From NCBI RefSeq assembly GCF_000421605.1, contig NZ_ATXI01000002.1:1-64000 (forward strand): a stretch of 64,000 nt of DNA, given 5' to 3'. This stretch comes from Thermodesulfobacterium thermophilum DSM 1276 (GTDB lineage: Bacteria; Desulfobacterota; Thermodesulfobacteria; Thermodesulfobacteriales; Thermodesulfobacteriaceae). Each line of letters begins with the position of its first letter. The stretch's first letter is position 1. The position numbers and the translations under genes were made by a program. Below, piece after piece: positions 14,894 to 64,000 of this stretch. A model generated the notes under the pieces. The model was given only the letters and a program-made list of their open reading frames with translations, did no database searches and was not told where the DNA came from.

Positions 14894-14911
14894 TTGGCAT
14901 AACTATTGCTA
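14894..14911 (+). promoter_or_regulatory. sigma-54-type promoter for the acetate-symporter operon
   Basis: TTGGCATAACTATTGCTA has GG at 14896-14897 and GC at 14908-14909, exactly ten bases apart, matching the RpoN consensus TGGCAC-N5-TTGCW at all key positions. Transcription would begin near 14921, giving a leader of about 36 bases with an AAGGAGGTG ribosome binding site before the ATG at 14957. It implies control by an enhancer-binding activator. Confidence 0.75.
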
Positions 14912-50030: not shown

Positions 50031-50072
50031 TTTAATGTTTTAAAATGTTTTAAAACATTTTGAAACATTAAA
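50031..50072. repeat. 42-bp palindrome upstream of the sigma-54-type promoter
   Basis: Twenty-one base pairs of dyad symmetry around TTTTAAAA, with one G-T mismatch (positions 50041/50062); arms read TTTAATGTTTTAAAATG and its complement. It lies about 75-115 bases before the -24 element, a normal enhancer site for sigma-54 activators. It is not followed by a T-tract on the plus strand, so it is a poor candidate for the surE terminator. AT-rich TATTG repeats precede it at 50020-50032. Confidence 0.7.
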
Positions 50073-50127
50073 AGGGGTTTTGTCTTTTAAAAAGGCTTAG
50101 AAAGTCTATTTTTCAAAAAAGACAGAT

Positions 50128-50145
50128 TTGGCATAATAGTTGCTT
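50128..50145 (+). promoter_or_regulatory. sigma-54-type promoter of the receiver/TauE/Usp operon
   Basis: TTGGCATAATAGTTGCTT has GG at 50130-50131 and GC at 50142-50143, ten bases apart, and is nearly the same as the element at 14894 (TTGGCATAACTATTGCTA). Transcription would start near 50155, about 58 bases before the receiver gene. Confidence 0.75.
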
Positions 50146-50212
50146 CAATTGTTTAAAAGTTAACAAGCCTTTTTTAAAAGAGGTATTAGAGACTAAAAAT
50201 TAAAAAACAGGT

Positions 50213-50611
50213 ATGAAGGTAAGAAACGTACAAGTGCTTATAAAGACTGAAGATAAAGACTTAGAGGAGAGATTAAAAGAAATGATAATCAAAATAGGGG
50301 CGAAGGTGGTTGAAACCGAAAATCTTTCTAAGGATGAGTTTAAAAAGATAGAGCTATTAATCATAGATACCCGTGAGATGGAATATGAAAGCATGTTTGA
50401 GTTTATTAGTGAAATAAGAAAGTTAAACCATAAAATAAAAATTATGTGGTTAACCTGTAAAGATAACATTAAGTCTTCTCTCTTGGCTATGAAGGTTGGG
50501 GTTACCGAAGAAGTTTTCTTTCCTATAGATGTAAAAACTTTAAAAAATAAAATTAAGGTTTTATTAGAGCTATCTCAAAGAGAAAAAAGAGAACAAACCA
50601 GAGCGTGTTAA
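50213..50611 (+). CDS. degenerate response-regulator receiver protein
   Basis: A 132-residue CheY-like fold with no output domain. The phosphoacceptor-like Asp is in LLIIDTREME and the switch Thr in IMWLTCKDN, but the acidic pair normally at the end of strand 1 is missing (VQVLIKTED) and the Lys before Pro is replaced (EEVFFPIDV, normally xxKPxx). Phosphorylation by a kinase is therefore doubtful; it may act as a pseudo-receiver or protein-interaction module. It is the first gene after the sigma-54-type promoter and precedes a TauE-type permease and a Usp gene by about 200 bases. Confidence 0.7.
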   Translation: MKVRNVQVLIKTEDKDLEERLKEMIIKIGAKVVETENLSKDEFKKIELLIIDTREMEYESMFEFISEIRKLNHKIKIMWLTCKDNIKSSLLAMKVGVTEEVFFPIDVKTLKNKIKVLLELSQREKREQTRAC

Positions 50612-50623
50612 AGATGGAGAAAA

Positions 50624-50652
50624 TTGACTTTGTTTAAAAATTTAACTAAAAT
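50624..50652 (+). promoter_or_regulatory. secondary sigma-70-type promoter
   Basis: TTGACT (50624-50629), a 17-base spacer and TAAAAT (50647-50652) would allow transcription of the micro-frames and the permease gene independently of the receiver gene. Confidence 0.4.
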
Positions 50653-50680
50653 TAAAAATATAAACAGGGAGGTGATGCTT

Positions 50681-50807
50681 ATGGGAAAAAGGTGAAGCAT
50701 TTTGGGGTTAATTTAGGTGTTTTCGTTTTTATCGTTACCAGAAAAGGTAAGAGGAAACTATGAAAAAGAAAATTAGTAAAACAAATGTAAAAATCAAAAG
50801 GAGGTAG
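50681..50807 (+). other. chain of three overlapping micro-ORFs in the leader of the TauE gene
   Basis: Three tiny frames overlap at stop/start codons: MGKR (ATG 50681, after a strong GGGAGGTGA site), a 23-residue hydrophobic peptide beginning at GTG 50692 (core FGVNLGVFVFIV, ending KGKRKL) and a basic 15-mer from ATG 50760 (MKKKISKTNVKIKRR). Junctions are GTGA and ATGA. The last frame stops three bases before the permease start and includes its AGGAGG site. They could encode a small membrane peptide or act as a translational leader. They could also be remnants: MGK echoes the permease N terminus MGKLRF. Evidence is limited to frame and ribosome-site geometry. Confidence 0.35.
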
Positions 50808-50810
50808 ACA

Positions 50811-52070
50811 ATGGGTAAGTTAAGATTTCTTTATGAATTTATGATGAGTGCTTCTTTGGCTCATGCACGTTGGGAAAAAGAAATGGCAGACAACATTTTT
50901 CGAAACAAAAAGCGTTTATTACTTTTGTTGGTGCTCTTATCTCCTATTTTGGTAACCTCTCTCTTAGGGGCTGCTGACATACTCGGAGGTAAAAGTGCAT
51001 ATGCTCCCGCTCACTATACACCTATAGTTTTTTGGGTTTCTACTGTGGTGGGCTTTGCCGCTGGGTTGATTACTGGATGTATCGGTGCAGGAGGTGGATT
51101 CATAATCGCCCCAGCCCTTATGTCTGTAGGGGTAAAAGGTATAATGGCTGTAGGAACAGACCAGTTTCATATTTTTGCTAAAGCTATCATGGGAACGGTG
51201 TTGCACAAAAAATTAGGGAACGTAAGTGTAGCTTTAGCCATCTTTTTTATCTTAGGATCTATTGTAGGGGCTACTACCGGTGGTTATATAAATAGATTGC
51301 TATATTCTAAAGATCCTGTTCTTAGTGATGCTTTTATAAGTATAGTCTATGCAGTAATCCTGGGATTTTTGGGTTTTTATGCCATGTATGACTATTTTAG
51401 TACAAGAAGAAAAATAAAAATAGGGCGAGCTTCTTCTTCGGAAGGTGCTCACGGTGGAGTGGTTGGAACCACTAATTTAGCCATACAAATTCAAAAGATC
51501 AATGTTCCTCCTATAATTAAGTTTGACGAAGACTTTGGAGGTAGACAGATTTCAGCTTGGTTTATCATTGTAGGTGGTTTTGTGGTTGGTTTCTTGGCTG
51601 CAATCATGGGAGTGGGAGGTGGTTTTGTTACCTTCCCGATGTTTGTTTATGTTTTTGGGGTATCTACTCCTACTACTGTTGGTACTGACATCTTCCAAAT
51701 CATCTTTACAGCAGGCTACTCCTCCCTTACCCAGTATGCTATATATGGTTATGTTTTTTATACCTTAGCTATGGGACTTCTGATAGGATCTTTGATAGGA
51801 ATTCAAATAGGAGCACTTACCACCAAAGTTGTCCCTGGAACTACAATCAGAGCTTTTTATGCCTTAACCATTATGGCAGGATTTTTTAACAGAGTATCTG
51901 TTTTACCTGACAAATTTAGGTCTTTAAACCTTGTTTCCATCTCTAAAGATGTTTGTGAAACCTTTATTTTTATAGGTAACATTTTGTTTTGGGGAGCTGT
52001 AGGTTTGTTTGGGGTTTGGGTCTTACTCAGTTTCTTTAAAAACATAAGAACTTTAAGAGAGGAGGGATAA
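50811..52070 (+). CDS. TauE/SafE-family permease
   Basis: A 419-residue membrane protein with about nine segments and both TauE/SafE repeats: GCIGAGGGFIIAPALMSVGV (about residue 92) and IMGVGGGFVTFPMFVYVFGV (about 265). An N-terminal extension of about 60 residues (HARWEKEMADNIFRNKKR then a membrane segment) precedes the core. The family exports sulfite, sulfonates or related anions, which fits a sulfur-metabolising anaerobe, but the substrate is not proven. An AAGGAGG site precedes the ATG. It overlaps no neighbour; the next gene starts three bases later. Confidence 0.85.
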   Translation: MGKLRFLYEFMMSASLAHARWEKEMADNIFRNKKRLLLLLVLLSPILVTSLLGAADILGGKSAYAPAHYTPIVFWVSTVVGFAAGLITGCIGAGGGFIIAPALMSVGVKGIMAVGTDQFHIFAKAIMGTVLHKKLGNVSVALAIFFILGSIVGATTGGYINRLLYSKDPVLSDAFISIVYAVILGFLGFYAMYDYFSTRRKIKIGRASSSEGAHGGVVGTTNLAIQIQKINVPPIIKFDEDFGGRQISAWFIIVGGFVVGFLAAIMGVGGGFVTFPMFVYVFGVSTPTTVGTDIFQIIFTAGYSSLTQYAIYGYVFYTLAMGLLIGSLIGIQIGALTTKVVPGTTIRAFYALTIMAGFFNRVSVLPDKFRSLNLVSISKDVCETFIFIGNILFWGAVGLFGVWVLLSFFKNIRTLREEG

Positions 52071-52073
52071 GCC

Positions 52074-52814
52074 ATGGGAGCTACAAGAAAAAAAGAGTTA
52101 ACCCTTGGAGTAGTTTTTACACTGGTGTTTGTAGGGATTCTGTTTTTAATGTTTCAACCTTATTTTGGTAGAGGTCAAAACTTTTTAGCTTATGCTGACG
52201 AACTTTTCAACAGCTTGGCTAAAGGGTCTGCATATTTTATACCCCAAACAAAAACTAAAGTAGAAAAGTTTAAAGGGAAAATTTTAGATATCGAAATCAA
52301 TCTTAAGAAACCCACCGATACCCCACAAGACCTTCAAACAAGAATAGCCTTAAACACCAAACTTTATACCTTGGCAGGAGCACAAGTAGAAGATAAAGGA
52401 AATGGTAAAATCAAAATAGTAGGAGATTTGGGTCAGATACTAAGCTCTGCCTTAGAAGATGCAGATGCTATGTATTGGAATAAGGGAGATTTTATCAAAG
52501 AAAAGTATGGATATCAAGACGAAAAAAAGATGTTCAGACAATGGCATAACAGTTTGAGTGCTATTAATAAAAAGCTTGTTTTGGAAAAAAAGGTAGAAAT
52601 GGCTCAAATAGTAAATGAGGTTGTCACAAAAGCCATCGAGCCTGGCTATAACTTTTATGGAATTACTCCTGAAAGTGTTAAGAGTAAAACTGGATTGCTT
52701 ACAGGTCTACTTATTTTTTATGTATTTTACACGGTATGGTGGGGCTTTGCTATAATGTATCTAATGGAAGGGCTTGGACTTTCTACCAAAAAAGGTAAAA
52801 AGAAGGAGGTGTAA
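52074..52814 (+). CDS. unknown two-segment membrane protein coupled to the TauE permease
   Basis: A 246-residue protein, not recognised. An N-terminal membrane segment (LTLGVVFTLVFVGILFLMF, about 9-27) and a C-terminal one (GLLTGLLIFYVFYTVWWGFA, about 202-221) flank a soluble, probably periplasmic region. That region has an alternating beta-like stretch (KFKGKILDIEINLKK; QVEDKGNGKIKIVGDLGQIL) and a helical part containing MYWNKGDFIKEKYGYQDEKK. Its position between the permease and a Usp, three bases after one and one base before the other, suggests an accessory subunit of the permease. No cysteines or binding motif are evident. Confidence 0.7.
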   Translation: MGATRKKELTLGVVFTLVFVGILFLMFQPYFGRGQNFLAYADELFNSLAKGSAYFIPQTKTKVEKFKGKILDIEINLKKPTDTPQDLQTRIALNTKLYTLAGAQVEDKGNGKIKIVGDLGQILSSALEDADAMYWNKGDFIKEKYGYQDEKKMFRQWHNSLSAINKKLVLEKKVEMAQIVNEVVTKAIEPGYNFYGITPESVKSKTGLLTGLLIFYVFYTVWWGFAIMYLMEGLGLSTKKGKKKEV

Positions 52815-52815
52815 A

Positions 52816-53607
52816 ATGGAAAAAATACTTATCACCACCGACGGCTCTCAAGCAGCTGAAAAGGCTGCAAAATTAGGGGTAAAGTGGGCTAAAATCTTTA
52901 ACAGTAAACTGTATGGCTTAAGTGTAGCAGAGGTGATTCCTCTTGGGCCTGAATTGATGGAAGTTTACCCTAAACTGATAGAAATTTTAGAGAAAAAGGC
53001 CTATGAGGCAGTAGACTTTATCAAAAAAGAGGCAAGTCAAGAGGGATTAACTTGTGAAACCTTTGTTTTAAGCAGTTCAGACCCTTTAGAAATAATTTTG
53101 GATAAAGTACAAAGATTGGGAATTTCTATGTTAATGATGGGAAGAAAGCATACCTTAGGAAGAGTAAGTAGAAGTCTTATCGGTAAGTCTCCGTCACCGG
53201 TTACGGTGGTTCCGGCAGAGGCTTCTACTACCTCAGAAAAGATACTTTTAGCTACAGATGGGTCTGTTTATAGCCAAAAAGCTACCTCTTGGGCGATCGA
53301 TTTTTGTAAAAAAGTAGGAAGCACTTTGTTTGTTATATCAGTAGCTAAAACAGACAACGATGTTGCTTTTGCTGAAGAATGTATAAATGCGGCAGAAGAA
53401 AAGGCTAAAAATCAGGGAATCAAGGTTGAAATCTCTTTAGTCAAAGGTGAGCCCTTTGAGAAGATTTTAGAATTTTCTTTTCAAAAAGAGACAGACCTTA
53501 TTATAATGGGATATAAAGGGAAAACCGGTTTAGAAAAAATCTTAGTAGGAAGCGTAGCAGAAAGGGTGGTAGAAAACTCTAAAGCTCCTGTAGTGTTAAT
53601 AAAATAA
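52816..53607 (+). CDS. tandem-domain universal stress protein
   Basis: A 263-residue protein of two UspA domains. Each starts with a beta strand and ATP-loop-type segment (ILITTDGSQAAEKAA; ILLATDGSVYSQKAT). The second ends with the nucleotide-binding motif MGYKGKTGLEKILVGSVAER, matching Gx2Gx9G(S/T); the first has MGRKHTLGRVSRSLIGKSPS. It probably binds ATP or AMP and regulates its operon partner, the TauE permease complex, as Usp proteins beside transporters often do. The start at 52816 follows AAGGAGGTG. A terminator follows the stop. Confidence 0.88.
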   Translation: MEKILITTDGSQAAEKAAKLGVKWAKIFNSKLYGLSVAEVIPLGPELMEVYPKLIEILEKKAYEAVDFIKKEASQEGLTCETFVLSSSDPLEIILDKVQRLGISMLMMGRKHTLGRVSRSLIGKSPSPVTVVPAEASTTSEKILLATDGSVYSQKATSWAIDFCKKVGSTLFVISVAKTDNDVAFAEECINAAEEKAKNQGIKVEISLVKGEPFEKILEFSFQKETDLIIMGYKGKTGLEKILVGSVAERVVENSKAPVVLIK

Positions 53608-53636: not shown

Positions 53637-53668
53637 AGGGCAACCTATTCAAGGTTGCCCTTTTATTA
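53637..53668 (+). terminator. intrinsic terminator after the Usp gene
   Basis: AGGGCAACCT (53637-53646) pairs perfectly with AGGTTGCCCT (53652-53661) over a five-base loop, followed by TTTTATTATTT. It ends the receiver-permease-Usp operon. Confidence 0.85.
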
Positions 53669-54806: not shown

Positions 54807-55729
54807 CTATAGGTTTACTATCGCAATCGTAGGTTCTAAACATTCGTTTATTACTGCTGAACTTACCCCACCTAAAACAAGGTCTTTAAAGGCTGAACGT
54901 CCTTTTCTCCCCATGATTATTAGGTTATAACCCACTTGATTTATTTCTTTAACCACCTCGTCTTTAGGGAACCCGACAGAGATTTTTGTCTCGACCAACT
55001 CCTCCTTAATTCCTTGTTCTAAAAATCTTTTTTTAGCCTTATCAAGGATTTCTTTGGCTTCCTCTTCTGGGTCTATGCCTGCCTGTACTCTTTCAAGGTA
55101 AAGAGAAAGATTGATAACCCTTAACAGGGTTACCTTCCTTATATCCTTGATGTACTTGGTGATACACACTGCATGCTCTACTGCCTTCATTGAATACTCG
55201 GAACCATCCACAGGAACTAAAATGTCAAGAACAGGCCCTTCTTTTTCTCCTACCAGATAGATGTTTCGATTGGTCAACCCATGTAAAATTTTGTTGGATA
55301 CACTTCCAAGAAAATAACTTTTTATTTCCGACATACCTCTTCTTGCAAGGATTACGGTCTGAAAATTTTCTCTTTCTGCAAATTCGATTATCTTATTCCC
55401 CGGATCTCCTTCCTCAACTTTTTTTCTATCAAACCGGTTATACCAGCCTTTTTAAGCACACCTTCATACTCAGATAAAAAGGGCATTATGTTTTCTTCCA
55501 CGTGTTTCTTTTTAATTTTTGTTATGATTTCTGAATTTTTTATAAGTTCTGCCCTAAAATCGAGGTTTTTCATGTGTTCACTTAAATATCCACCTGCCAT
55601 CACATAAAAAAGGGTTATGTTTTCAACCCGAAAGTTTCTAAGAAAGTTTCCTGCAAACTTAACAGCTCTAAAAGAATTCTCACTTTTATCAACAGGTAGT
55701 AAAACCTTCTTGAGACCGCAATTTACCAT
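54807..55729 (-). pseudogene. tandem universal stress protein gene broken by a one-base frameshift
   Basis: On the minus strand a start at 55729 (MVNCGLKKVLLPVDKSENSF) gives the N-terminal part of a Usp domain, stopping at 55388. The missing end of that domain (EEGDPGNKIIEFAERENFQT, ARRGMSEIKSYFLGSVSNKI) continues in another frame and leads into a complete second Usp domain (DILVPVDGSEYSMKAVEHAV to IIMGRKGRSAFKDLVLGGVS), ending at 54807. The frame change falls in a run of seven A residues (plus-strand T run at 55419-55425); one more A would restore one frame of 307 residues. A new start at 55334 could still give a 175-residue protein. It could be real decay, a sequencing error at the homopolymer, or slippage. 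Confidence 0.8.
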
Positions 55730-55746
55730 AGTTTTCCTCCTACGTT

Positions 55747-57467
55747 TTAATAAAAAAGCAACAACCAGATATTACTAATTATGATAGTAATTAACATATA
55801 AACAAACGCATATTTCATAAAGCCAAAAAAGCTTATTTTATAACCTGCAGATTCTGCAATTCCTATGGTTACTACATTGGCAGAAGCACCTATTATAGTC
55901 CCATTTCCTCCCAAGCAAGCTCCTAAAGCCAAGGCCCACCAGAGTACATTACTTTCAGCTCCAGGTATTACCTTTGTAAGATAGGCAACTATAGGTAACA
56001 TCGTCGCTGTAAAAGGTATGTTATCCACAAAGGCGCTCATTATGGCAGAGACCCATAAAATAAGACATATGGCCACTGTAAGATTACCTGCTGAAAGATT
56101 ATGCACCCAGTCGGCGATAATCGCAAGTAATCCTACCTCTTCTACAGCCCCGACTATTATAAAAAGAAAGATAAAAAATAAGAGAGTTGTCCATTCTATG
56201 TCTTTTTCGATCAACTCAAGCATTTTTACTTTTTTAGTAAGCACTGCATAGGTAAAAAGAATCCCTGCACCAAACAAAGCCGGGATACTTACCTCCATAT
56301 GTCAGTATCCATGTGTAGCAAAAAATCCAACTACTATCAACATCACGATAAGTCCATAGGTGAGAAGGGTTTTATCTGTAATTTTATATTCTTCCCTTAG
56401 ATAACTCAGGAAAGCATCCACATCATCAACTTTTCCTTTTTTGTATTCCTTTGAATAGAAAAATTTGTTGTATATAATAAGCGCTATCATGCATATTAGT
56501 ACCACCGGTGTTAATGCATAGACAAACTGCATAAACGTAAGCCCTGTGTAGGAACCAATCATGATGTTTGGAGGGTCACCTATGAGAGTGGCAGTTCCAC
56601 CAACGTTTGAGGCCATTATACCTGGTATTAAAAGAGAAAGAGGATTAATTTTTAGTGCTATAGATATCTCGATTAAAACCGGTGTATAAAGGAGCATAGT
56701 CGTCACATTGTCAAGAAGAGCAGAAGTTATGGCTATGAAATGCTAAGAGCCATTACATTACCACGAGCAAGTTTATAGAACATGTAAGCGCACCACTGGA
56801 AAACCCCTGTGTGTTTAAGAACCCCGATGATTATCATCATCCCCATAAGCAGGAATATCACGTTCATGTCTATGGCTTCTATGGCCCTTTCAAAAGAAAT
56901 GATGTGAAAATCAGGATTTATGGTGCCTAAGGTATAAGTAAGGATAAGCATGGTTACAGCTCCAAGCATGGCTGCAACCGTTCTGTGAAGAAGTTCAAAA
57001 GATATAAGCGCATAAGTTATTATAAAAACTATGGTAGCAATCCAGAAAGCAGGGCCTATATATCGCTCAAGGATGATATTTTTGTTGGCATAAAACTCAT
57101 TACCTTTTACGGCAAAATCTTCCTTTTTAATCTCAACCACAGTTTTTTTTTTAAACGAAGTTTTGGAAATCTCAAGTTGAATCTTTCCGGTTTCAATTAA
57201 ACCCTTTGGCAGTTGAAACTCAAGCTGAAAGGTCCCATGAGAAGAACTAATAACTTTATCAAGCTTACCATATTCTTTAAGTCTCTTATAAGGCTTTCCA
57301 TTAACTAACAGTTTTATTTCTGCCTCTTTAACCGGCTCTTTATGATTATCAAGGATTATACCTGAAATATGAAACTTATCCATGTTTTGCTGAGAATTAT
57401 CCTCGGCAAAAGCCAAAAAAGGTAAAATTAAAACAAAAAGGGCAAACAAAAAGAATATTTTTTTCAT
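55747..57467 (-). pseudogene. NhaD/ArsB-type permease gene broken by a frameshift and an in-frame TGA
   Basis: Three successive minus-strand frames make up one protein of about 570 residues. From 57467: a signal peptide (MKKIFFLFALFVLILPFLAFA), an Ig- or transthyretin-like domain (FHISGIILDNHKEPVKEAEI) and the first membrane segments, ending LARGNVMALSIS at 56733. The next frame supplies AITSALLDNVTTMLLYTP and the SNVGGTATLIGDPPNIMIGS motif of the ion-transporter superfamily. The third continues in frame after a TGA at 56305-56307 (FATHGY, stop, HMEVSIPALFGAG) through FVDNIPFTATMLPI to 55747. The first break looks like loss of one T near 56740. Family members move Na+, arsenite or organic anions; the present gene is probably inactive. 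Confidence 0.78.
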
Positions 57468-57482
57468 GAAAACCCCCTAAAT

Positions 57483-58193
57483 CTAAATTTTTATTTCTTT
57501 CTTTTCACCGTTAACCACTACATAAGATTCGTCAGGAATGATGTAGTTTTCCTCTGGTCCATGCACCTGAATTCCTGAAATAACGGCATAATCAGCCTTT
57601 TTAGTATCCACAACCTTTTCTATTATATGCTCAAGATCTTCTACGATTACCTTAAGGGTTTTTTTGGTAAGAGTAAGAAGGTCTGGGATCTCTCCGTATT
57701 TCAATTCTCTAAGCAATCTTCTTTTTAAAAGACTTTCTTCGATATCCTCTTCATCAAGTCTTATACTTATCTTTCCTGACTTAAGTTCATTAAGAAAAAG
57801 ACACAAAGCCCCACAAGCATGAGATTTTTCAAGCCCTTTCCTTTTGCATACTCCCATGTTTCCCTTTTCATCGATAGCAATGTGAGAAAAAGCATAAAAA
57901 ATATATCTTTCTTTACCATCTACTTGAGGAGCGTGGCTTATAAAAGCTTTCATACCAGTCTTGCCGGCTGTAAAAAGCCCAGCAAGACTGGAAAAATTAA
58001 AGGCTTCTCCCCACATTCTTTTTATATGACTTCTTACTGTCTGGGAAATCTCATCCCTACATACACAAACAGAGGCTATGGAATTTCCATCGTTAAAACC
58101 AAAATCTTTTAATGTCTCATATGACATCTTTATAAAATCATACTCTCTAAAAAACCTTCCAAAAATTTTCTCTAAAATAGGCTTAATAACCAT
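57483..58193 (-). CDS. LCIB-type (theta-class) carbonic anhydrase
   Basis: A 236-residue protein resembling algal LCIB and bacterial relatives. Family segments are GFNDGNSIASVCVCRDEISQ (about residues 32-51, with the CRDE motif), FNFSSLAGLFTAGKTGMKAF, ISHAPQVDGKERYIFYAFSH and ACGALCLFLNELKSGKI. Cys45, His87 and Cys127 are the likely zinc ligands by comparison with the LCIB family; Arg46 and Asp47 match the active-site pair. It has no signal peptide, so it should hydrate CO2 in the cytoplasm. The gene lies 20 bases after a DASS permease gene and 15 before the broken permease gene, pointing to a role with anion or bicarbonate transport. The family match is from memory of the motifs. Confidence 0.7.
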   Translation of the reverse strand: MVIKPILEKIFGRFFREYDFIKMSYETLKDFGFNDGNSIASVCVCRDEISQTVRSHIKRMWGEAFNFSSLAGLFTAGKTGMKAFISHAPQVDGKERYIFYAFSHIAIDEKGNMGVCKRKGLEKSHACGALCLFLNELKSGKISIRLDEEDIEESLLKRRLLRELKYGEIPDLLTLTKKTLKVIVEDLEHIIEKVVDTKKADYAVISGIQVHGPEENYIIPDESYVVVNGEKKEIKI

Positions 58194-59698: not shown

Positions 59699-60347
59699 CC
59701 CACATGCCGTTCCTCTTTTAGCAGGTATACCGGTAGGAATTTTAATCCTTGATATAGAAGGAGGGTTAAAAGAAGGAATTAAAAAAGCTACACCAGAAGA
59801 TATTCTTTCTATTCCCTTTAAGGCTATTCTTAAGGGAATGCAATCTATGAAATGGCCTGAACCTCCTCCTGTGGATGCTAAGGGCTTTCTTGGGATGATA
59901 GCTCATACAGCAACCATCCCAGAAGAAGAGCTTCAGGAAACTGGGAAAAAAAGTTTTTGTGTGGTCACCAAAAACTACATGAATTTTAGTCTTCGGCTTG
60001 GATACCATTTTTCCATGATCGAAGCCTATGTTGGTGAAAACATAAACGATAACTATGTTAAATTTTTCTTTAAAGGAGGGGGGGCAGCCCTTGATAGAAG
60101 GTTACGAAGGGTAAATTTAATAACCAAAATCCTAAAAGATTTGAGATTTAGGGTAAAAGTAAAAGAAGATTTAATAGATGCCGTGTTGTTTAAATATGAT
60201 AGTCCTACGATTGAAAAAACTCTTGAAATCTTAGGCAAATTAACTGCTTTTACTAAACAACTTGATATGGTACTTTTTAACGATGCCATAACCCAAATGT
60301 ACTTGGATGAGTTTAGAACAAAATATATAAAAGAACTAATAGATTAG
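59690..60347 (+). pseudogene. truncated PEP-synthase-like protein, C-terminal remnant
   Basis: A plus-strand open frame without a plausible start (stop at 59673) encodes NPHAVPLLAGIPVGILILDI, KWPEPPPVDAKGFLGMIAHT, CVVTKNYMNFSLRLGYHFSM and FFFKGGGAALDRRLRRVNLI, ending at 60347. These match, from memory, the C-terminal part of the large PEP/pyruvate-binding proteins of sulfate reducers; the ATP-grasp and swivelling domains that should precede are gone. The reading frame breaks where the minus-strand DASS permease begins, so a deletion or inversion probably joined the two. An internal ATG at 59838 could give a 169-residue protein, but without a good ribosome binding site. The 3' end overlaps the response-regulator gene by four bases. 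Confidence 0.65.
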
Positions 60348-63188: not shown

Positions 63189-64000
63189 ATGAAGGCCAAG
63201 TATAATGAATCTTTTATAAAAATTAAAGATATTTTAGAAGCAATCCCTTATGGAACTGCTTTTTTAGACGAAAACTTTCGGGTGGTATTTATAAATTCAT
63301 TTTTAGAAGCTTTAACCGGATACAAGTCTGAGGAAGTTAAAGGGTTAGATATAAATCAAATAATAAAAACCAACGTTTTTAAAGAATTAATAGCTAGGTT
63401 AAGAAAAGAAGAAAAATTTTCGATAGAAGGAGACATAATAAACGTTCACCGACGCAAAATACCGGTAAAGATTACTGTAACGAGCCTTTCTCAAGGAAAA
63501 AATAGATGGTTCATGTTGGTGCTTGAAGATCTTTCACTTTTAAAGGACAAATCTCTTTTCTTGCCTCAATTTGGAATGGATTTCATTTTAGGCAACAGCC
63601 CGGCTATTTTAAAAATAAAAGAAATGTTACCTATTTTTGCGAACTCTAACGCCACTCTCTTGATAGAGGGAGAAACAGGCACAGGAAAAGATTTGTTAGC
63701 AGAGGTAATACATAAACTTTCTCCGAGGGCAAACCATCCTTTCATCAAAGTAAATTGTGGGGCTCTTCCGGAGCCTCTGTTAGAGTCAGAACTTTTTGGC
63801 CACGTAAAAGGTGCCTTTACCGGAGCTAATGCTGACAAACCAGGAATGATAAAATTAGCCAATGGAGGGACTCTTTTCCTTACAGAAATAGGAGACCTAC
63901 CCTTTACCCTTCAGGTAAAACTACTAACTTTTTTAGACGATAAAGAGTTTTATCCGTTAGGTAGTTCCCAAAAAGTAAAAGTAGACGTAAGGGTGATTGT
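63189..64000 (+). CDS. PAS-AAA+ sigma-54 activator, cut by the window end
   Basis: An open frame from ATG 63189 runs to the end of the window (about 270 codons) without a stop. A PAS domain (about residues 10-115; YGTAFLDENFRVVFINSFLE) precedes a sigma-54 AAA+ domain with Walker A GETGTGKDLLAEVIH and the sigma-54 contact loop GAFTGA. The Walker B segment reads GGTLFLTEIGDLP, where nearly all relatives have LDEIG, so the first Asp is Thr. A Fis-type DNA-binding domain would be expected beyond the window. It is divergent from the sensor-kinase gene (178 bases apart) and lacks its own receiver. The region 63012-63188 shows no other feature I can support. Confidence 0.88.
   Translation, partial: MKAKYNESFIKIKDILEAIPYGTAFLDENFRVVFINSFLEALTGYKSEEVKGLDINQIIKTNVFKELIARLRKEEKFSIEGDIINVHRRKIPVKITVTSLSQGKNRWFMLVLEDLSLLKDKSLFLPQFGMDFILGNSPAILKIKEMLPIFANSNATLLIEGETGTGKDLLAEVIHKLSPRANHPFIKVNCGALPEPLLESELFGHVKGAFTGANADKPGMIKLANGGTLFLTEIGDLPFTLQVKLLTFLDDKEFYPLGSSQKVKVDVRVI

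Follow-up and report, generated by a model that had tools for sequence, protein, structure and literature searches.

The closest genetically studied analogue of the four-gene operon described here, from Thermodesulfobacterium thermophilum DSM 1276, is the Desulfovibrio nitrate cluster (DVU0251-DVU0245 / Dde_0597-0605), whose loss makes cells resistant to nitrate and mildly sick on thiosulfate and which has been suggested to import thiosulfate (PMC4001038). Operons of this general kind are already known, because sigma-54-dependent TSUP/PSE operons have been described in Desulfovibrio vulgaris, for example DVU0132-DVU0133 (PMC4641369), where the divergent operons of the ORP system are likewise controlled by sigma-54 and a cognate activator (Fievet 2011, as cited in PMC4641369). 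The TauE protein of Cupriavidus necator is a sulfite exporter (Weinitschke 2007, as cited in PMC5840216). TSUP members could not be assigned in PMC5840216, and D. vulgaris with three annotated permeases deleted still reduces sulfate (PMC7531388). We analyzed the first 64,000 nucleotides of contig NZ_ATXI01000002.1 (the window), in which four co-directional genes encode a degenerate receiver, a TauE/TSUP permease, an unnamed membrane protein (MP) and a universal stress protein (Usp). We propose, with a probability of roughly 0.6, that they form a sigma-54-controlled operon for a two-subunit TSUP permease of sulfur oxyanions, its substrate and direction being putative.

A permease, its membrane partner and dsrA

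The TauE protein belongs to the TSUP family, matching PF01925 at 1.8e-39 (136 bits against a cut-off of 32.6), and its gene lies immediately 5' of MP in 95 of the 95 loci that could be scored. MP itself matched no family above cut-off in Pfam or NCBIfam. Its AlphaFold2 model (pLDDT 87.5) has terminal helices at residues 6-27 and 203-233 around an alpha/beta domain, and since both ends of the protein are rich in lysine and arginine, this middle domain is probably periplasmic. Comparison with solved structures (Foldseek, VIA-align) gave none at E <= 0.001, the best Z of 6.3 being to helical proteins. Three candidate identities were rejected: PapC_C (PF13953), at 18.5 bits under a cut-off of 27; a relative of DUF4881, with neither a DUF4881 match nor an alignment to the DUF4881 protein of locus L036; and a BON-like order of elements read from the DSSP string of the domain, which no hit backs. 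We found no description of MP in the open-licence literature searched.

MP tracks dissimilatory sulfite reductase. Across 296 genomes of Desulfobacterota, full dsrA is present in 69/70 genomes with MP, G301 being the single exception, compared with 77/226 without it (Fisher 7e-25), and the corresponding fractions among 197 genomes of Nitrospirota are 43/45 and 50/152 (Fisher 6e-15), both tests being uncorrected for phylogeny. When named MP genomes from several phyla were considered, 47 of the 50 had dsrA, and the three that lack it include an assembly of 0.9 Mb. The relation runs one way: a genome with MP nearly always has dsrA, whereas dsrA does not predict MP. This co-occurrence speaks for sulfur oxyanions as a class and underlies our reading of the permease. 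Because the pair is, across phyla, almost confined to microbes with dissimilatory sulfite reductase, TauE-MP is probably an overlooked sulfite, sulfate or thiosulfate transporter.

We gathered neighbourhood loci through MP, and their counts describe the surroundings of MP, not of TauE generally. Within the 60 loci that had enough flank, the neighbours included Usp (48), histidine kinase (44), receiver (38), sigma-54 activator (37) and PPDK-like (30) genes. A preliminary description of this DNA had read the operon as a stress-regulated exporter system; spelled out, such a system would release sulfite, or a sulfonate-derived anion, to guard the cell against sulfite accumulation, with Usp as the mark of a stress regulon. 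The frequency of Usp near MP fits such a role, PF01925 is named for sulfite exporters, and genomes with dsrA make sulfite inside the cell; however, the related Desulfovibrio TSUP cluster behaves like an entry route, its loss giving the nitrate resistance and thiosulfate sickness noted above, and we consider a protective exporter unlikely. The same phenotypes, and the suggested import of thiosulfate (PMC4001038), slightly favor uptake over export for TauE-MP.

It is less likely still that TauE-MP carries a non-sulfur substrate, such as a carboxylate or bicarbonate, and that the association with dsrA stems from the way sulfate reducers live. Transporters of the DASS and CitMHS types and an LCIB-type carbonic anhydrase lie nearby in the window, and the same set recurs near TauE-MP in L033, L110 and L141; in addition, half of the 60 loci have PPDK-like phosphoenolpyruvate/pyruvate enzymes nearby. 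DASS is found in 7/60 loci, however, and carbonic anhydrase in 3/60, and the association with dsrA in both phyla is tighter than lifestyle alone easily gives.

Sigma-54 promoter, palindrome and activator

Upstream of the first gene, TGGCATAATAGTTGCT matches the sigma-54 consensus TGGCAC-N5-TTGCW, with its GG and GC 10 bases apart (GG-N10-GC). Exact matches to TGGCAY-N5-TTGCW occur twice in the window, at 50129 and 14895. The promoter is unchanged in L026 and L027, and the source genome (1.79 Mb) has one rpoN gene. In 37 of the 95 loci a strong sigma-54 site lies ahead of TauE or its operon, compared with 1 of 95 reversed sequences.

Between 57 and 98 bp upstream of the first base of the promoter lies a gap-free 42-bp palindrome with 21-nt arms and one mismatch, the longest near-perfect palindrome within the window. 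None of 2000 intergenic dinucleotide shuffles gave an arm of 21 (maximum 18), and a search of the source genome with the 22-base core, allowing <=2 mismatches, returned this locus only, with 0 matches in reversed controls. Promoter and palindrome are beyond chance expectation. The palindrome consists of TGTTTYAAAA half-sites in a 10-bp register; it is kept in L026 and L027, and in L028 and L029 the half-site clusters are rearranged upstream of the same operon. Half-site clusters are densest upstream of the operon in the window, L026, L028 and L029, a density that was reached by 1, 0, 0 and 18 of 1000 shuffles, respectively. We rejected a role for the palindrome in rho-independent termination of the gene upstream: its stem is nearly all A-T, there is no T-run and the terminator scan omits it.

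The gene that begins at 63189 encodes a sigma-54 activator with the features of an enhancer-binding protein, namely an intact GAFTGA loop, an AAA+ domain (PF00158) and a C-terminal HTH_8 (PF02954). Its orthologues stand divergently beside the receiver-TauE-MP-Usp operon in genomes G010 (L028) and G005 (L029). They match the 63189 protein at 76 and 68% over full length (706 and 640 bits), compared with 306 and 286 bits for the next best of the 12 full sigma-54 activators of the source genome. Within the genus, orthologues of at least 69% identity occur in exactly G000, G005, G006, G010 and G013, and these five are exactly the genomes that have the operon (Fisher 5e-4, uncorrected for relatedness). 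Orthologue adjacency, matched occurrence and conserved half-sites together make the 63189 activator a well supported predicted regulator of the operon. It is improbable that a different regulator uses the palindrome as its operator and that another activator drives the promoter, for although the genome encodes 12 of them and the 63189 gene stands apart from the operon in the window, the evidence from sister genomes argues for this one.

The preliminary description had anticipated much of this arrangement. The promoter that it called near-consensus proved an exact match; the enhancer-like 42-bp palindrome was borne out; its placement about 75-115 bases upstream was about right, given ~83-124 bp from the expected transcription start near 50155; and the 63189 activator, there a candidate regulator, adjoins the operon in two sister genomes and co-occurs with it in five.

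A different activator subtype precedes TauE-MP-Usp in G009 (L031) and in the Thermodesulfovibrio-type loci L105-107 and L139. It has an N-terminal degenerate receiver below the Pfam cut-off (L031, L105 and L107 tested) and, in L031 and L105-107, a different recognition helix. The palindrome TGCAAC-N5-GTTGCA lies upstream of the sigma-54 site in L031 and L106 and is weaker in L107 and not clear in L105. Because a different helix is paired with a different palindrome in these loci, activator type and upstream site appear to change together, which is an indirect indication.

Several other genes were noted around these elements. A NifX-like gene (Nitro_FeMo-Co, PF02579) directly follows the PAS activator in the source genome (L049:4552-4863) and at L028:12431-12742, and L029:7060-7380 is a clear homologue in the same position. 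A small open reading frame (ORF) of ~45-60 aa (M[RK]KVWKKMKDLLVSITFSKPKEFDRL...) is conserved between the sigma-54 site and TauE in L105, L106, L107 and L139 and is interrupted by stops in G009 (L031). The second consensus match in the window, TGGCATAACTATTGCT (14895-14910), is followed by a gene for a small membrane protein and by an ORF of 514 aa that, judged from sequence reading, resembles a sodium:solute symporter.

Operon layout and neighboring genes

Features of the operon and its predicted regulator (window coordinates unless a locus is named)
Feature	Coordinates	Strand	Basis
42-bp palindrome, predicted enhancer (upstream activating sequence) for 63189 activator	50031..50072	none	conservation in L026/L027
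Sigma-54 promoter TGGCATAATAGTTGCT	50129..50144	+	-24 GG 50130-50131, -12 GC 50142-50143
Stand-alone pseudo-receiver, 132 aa	50213..50611	+	PF00072 below cut-off, residue check
TauE/SafE (TSUP) permease, 419 aa	50811..52070	+	PF01925
MP, unnamed TauE-partner membrane protein, 246 aa	52074..52814	+	no family match; AlphaFold2 model
Tandem universal stress protein, 263 aa	52816..53607	+	PF00582
Intrinsic terminator, 10-pair stem, closes operon	53637..53661	+	terminator scan
PAS-AAA+-HTH_8 sigma-54 activator, predicted operon regulator	63189..64000, past window end; 453 aa at L049:3189-4550	+	PF00158, PF02954

The TauE, MP and Usp genes are nearly contiguous. The 200-bp gap between the receiver and TauE genes is terminator-free, and a sigma-70-like match at 50624-50652 makes an internal promoter possible there; small ORFs in the same gap were set aside, being kept in near-identical genomes only. 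Conservation of the four-gene order, a check proposed in the preliminary description, holds in five sister genomes but not beyond them, where the core is TauE-MP, often with Usp and signalling genes.

PF00072 scored 24 bits on the receiver, against a cut-off of 30.2. The phospho-acceptor Asp and the Thr are retained, the acidic pair has become K-T and the conserved Lys has become Phe, and the substitutions are identical in the G013, G010 and G005 orthologues. A single-sequence model (pLDDT 69) has the strand/helix order of a receiver. With the acidic pair and Lys gone, the protein does not qualify as a phosphorylatable receiver. Its earlier designation as degenerate is thus upheld, as is that of MP as an unrecognised two-segment protein, which has two terminal transmembrane helices and no accepted family. 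Usp has two PF00582 stretches (148 bits, above cut-off), and its C-terminal half retains G-2X-G-9X-G-S, as read from the sequence.

Further downstream, on the minus strand (54807-57467), the genes for a Usp and a CitMHS-type transporter are each broken up into ORFs, several in all. The same genes are intact in L026 and L027 (307 and 576 aa), and we read the splits as frameshifts or assembly errors in the source genome. The LCIB-type beta carbonic anhydrase (57483-58193, PF18599) is flanked by the DASS and CitMHS-type transporters. A fragment at 59838-60347, with no Pfam match of its own, is 29-38% similar to part of the PPDK-like proteins found beside TauE-MP elsewhere and is probably a gene remnant.

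The proposed system and its known relatives

In the mechanism that we propose, the PAS-type 63189 activator would sense a cytoplasmic signal, bind the TGTTTYAAAA repeats and activate sigma-54 polymerase at the promoter. The operon would then yield the TSUP permease together with MP, a putative obligate partner whose alpha/beta domain is predicted to lie in the periplasm, and the pair would move sulfite, sulfate or thiosulfate in organisms that have dissimilatory sulfite reductase. Usp and the pseudo-receiver would have accessory roles, in regulation or in relation to the energy state. Since Thermodesulfovibrio-type loci fuse a degenerate receiver to the activator before TauE-MP-Usp, the pseudo-receiver may have the activator as its target.

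Several observations weigh against this proposal. The only studied TauE proteins named in the literature searched are sulfite exporters (cited in PMC5840216). The activator gene is 9.6 kb from the operon, and we saw no half-site cluster before the activator's own gene. In addition, 58/95 TauE-MP operons have no strong sigma-54 site (score below 14.5), the association of MP with dsrA carries no phylogenetic correction, and MP is absent from about half of the genomes with dsrA, which implies that TauE-MP is not essential for sulfate reduction. We hold only tentatively, at somewhat less than even odds, that TauE-MP is a dedicated two-subunit carrier across several phyla and one of the missing sulfate, sulfite or thiosulfate carriers of sulfate reducers. 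Nevertheless, this TSUP permease has an obligate partner whose occurrence follows that of dsrA in two phyla sampled independently, which makes it a concrete and testable carrier candidate for these organisms, and a sigma-54 switch with a named activator offers a handle on when the permease is used. As far as the literature searched shows, neither MP as an obligate partner nor its association with dsrA seems to have been described before.

The Desulfovibrio nitrate cluster resembles this locus in that a small unknown protein follows a TauE-type permease and that the surrounding genes include receiver, histidine kinase and PPDK-like ones. Its TauE gene (963 bp) and partner gene (588 bp) are both shorter, however, and DVU0250 is, from its size and context, likely a DUF4881 protein. 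The window operon does not have the short TauE and DUF4881-type partner of that module. Because a short TauE-DUF4881-266 aa set lies directly upstream of TauE-MP-PPDK in L036, the two kinds of module can share a locus. In the TSUP/PSE operons of D. vulgaris, a TSUP gene is likewise controlled by sigma-54 together with an enhancer-binding protein whose upstream site is conserved, but the activators DVU0110/DVUA0057 are receiver-type, whereas the 63189 activator is PAS-type. C. necator TauE shares PF01925 with the permease described here and has no MP partner described in the literature searched. Finally, the ORP system shares the combination of sigma-54 and a cognate activator. ORP itself is a protein of the Nitro_FeMo-Co family, and the activator gene of the source genome is also followed immediately by a NifX-like gene of that family; by contrast, the target here is a permease operon.

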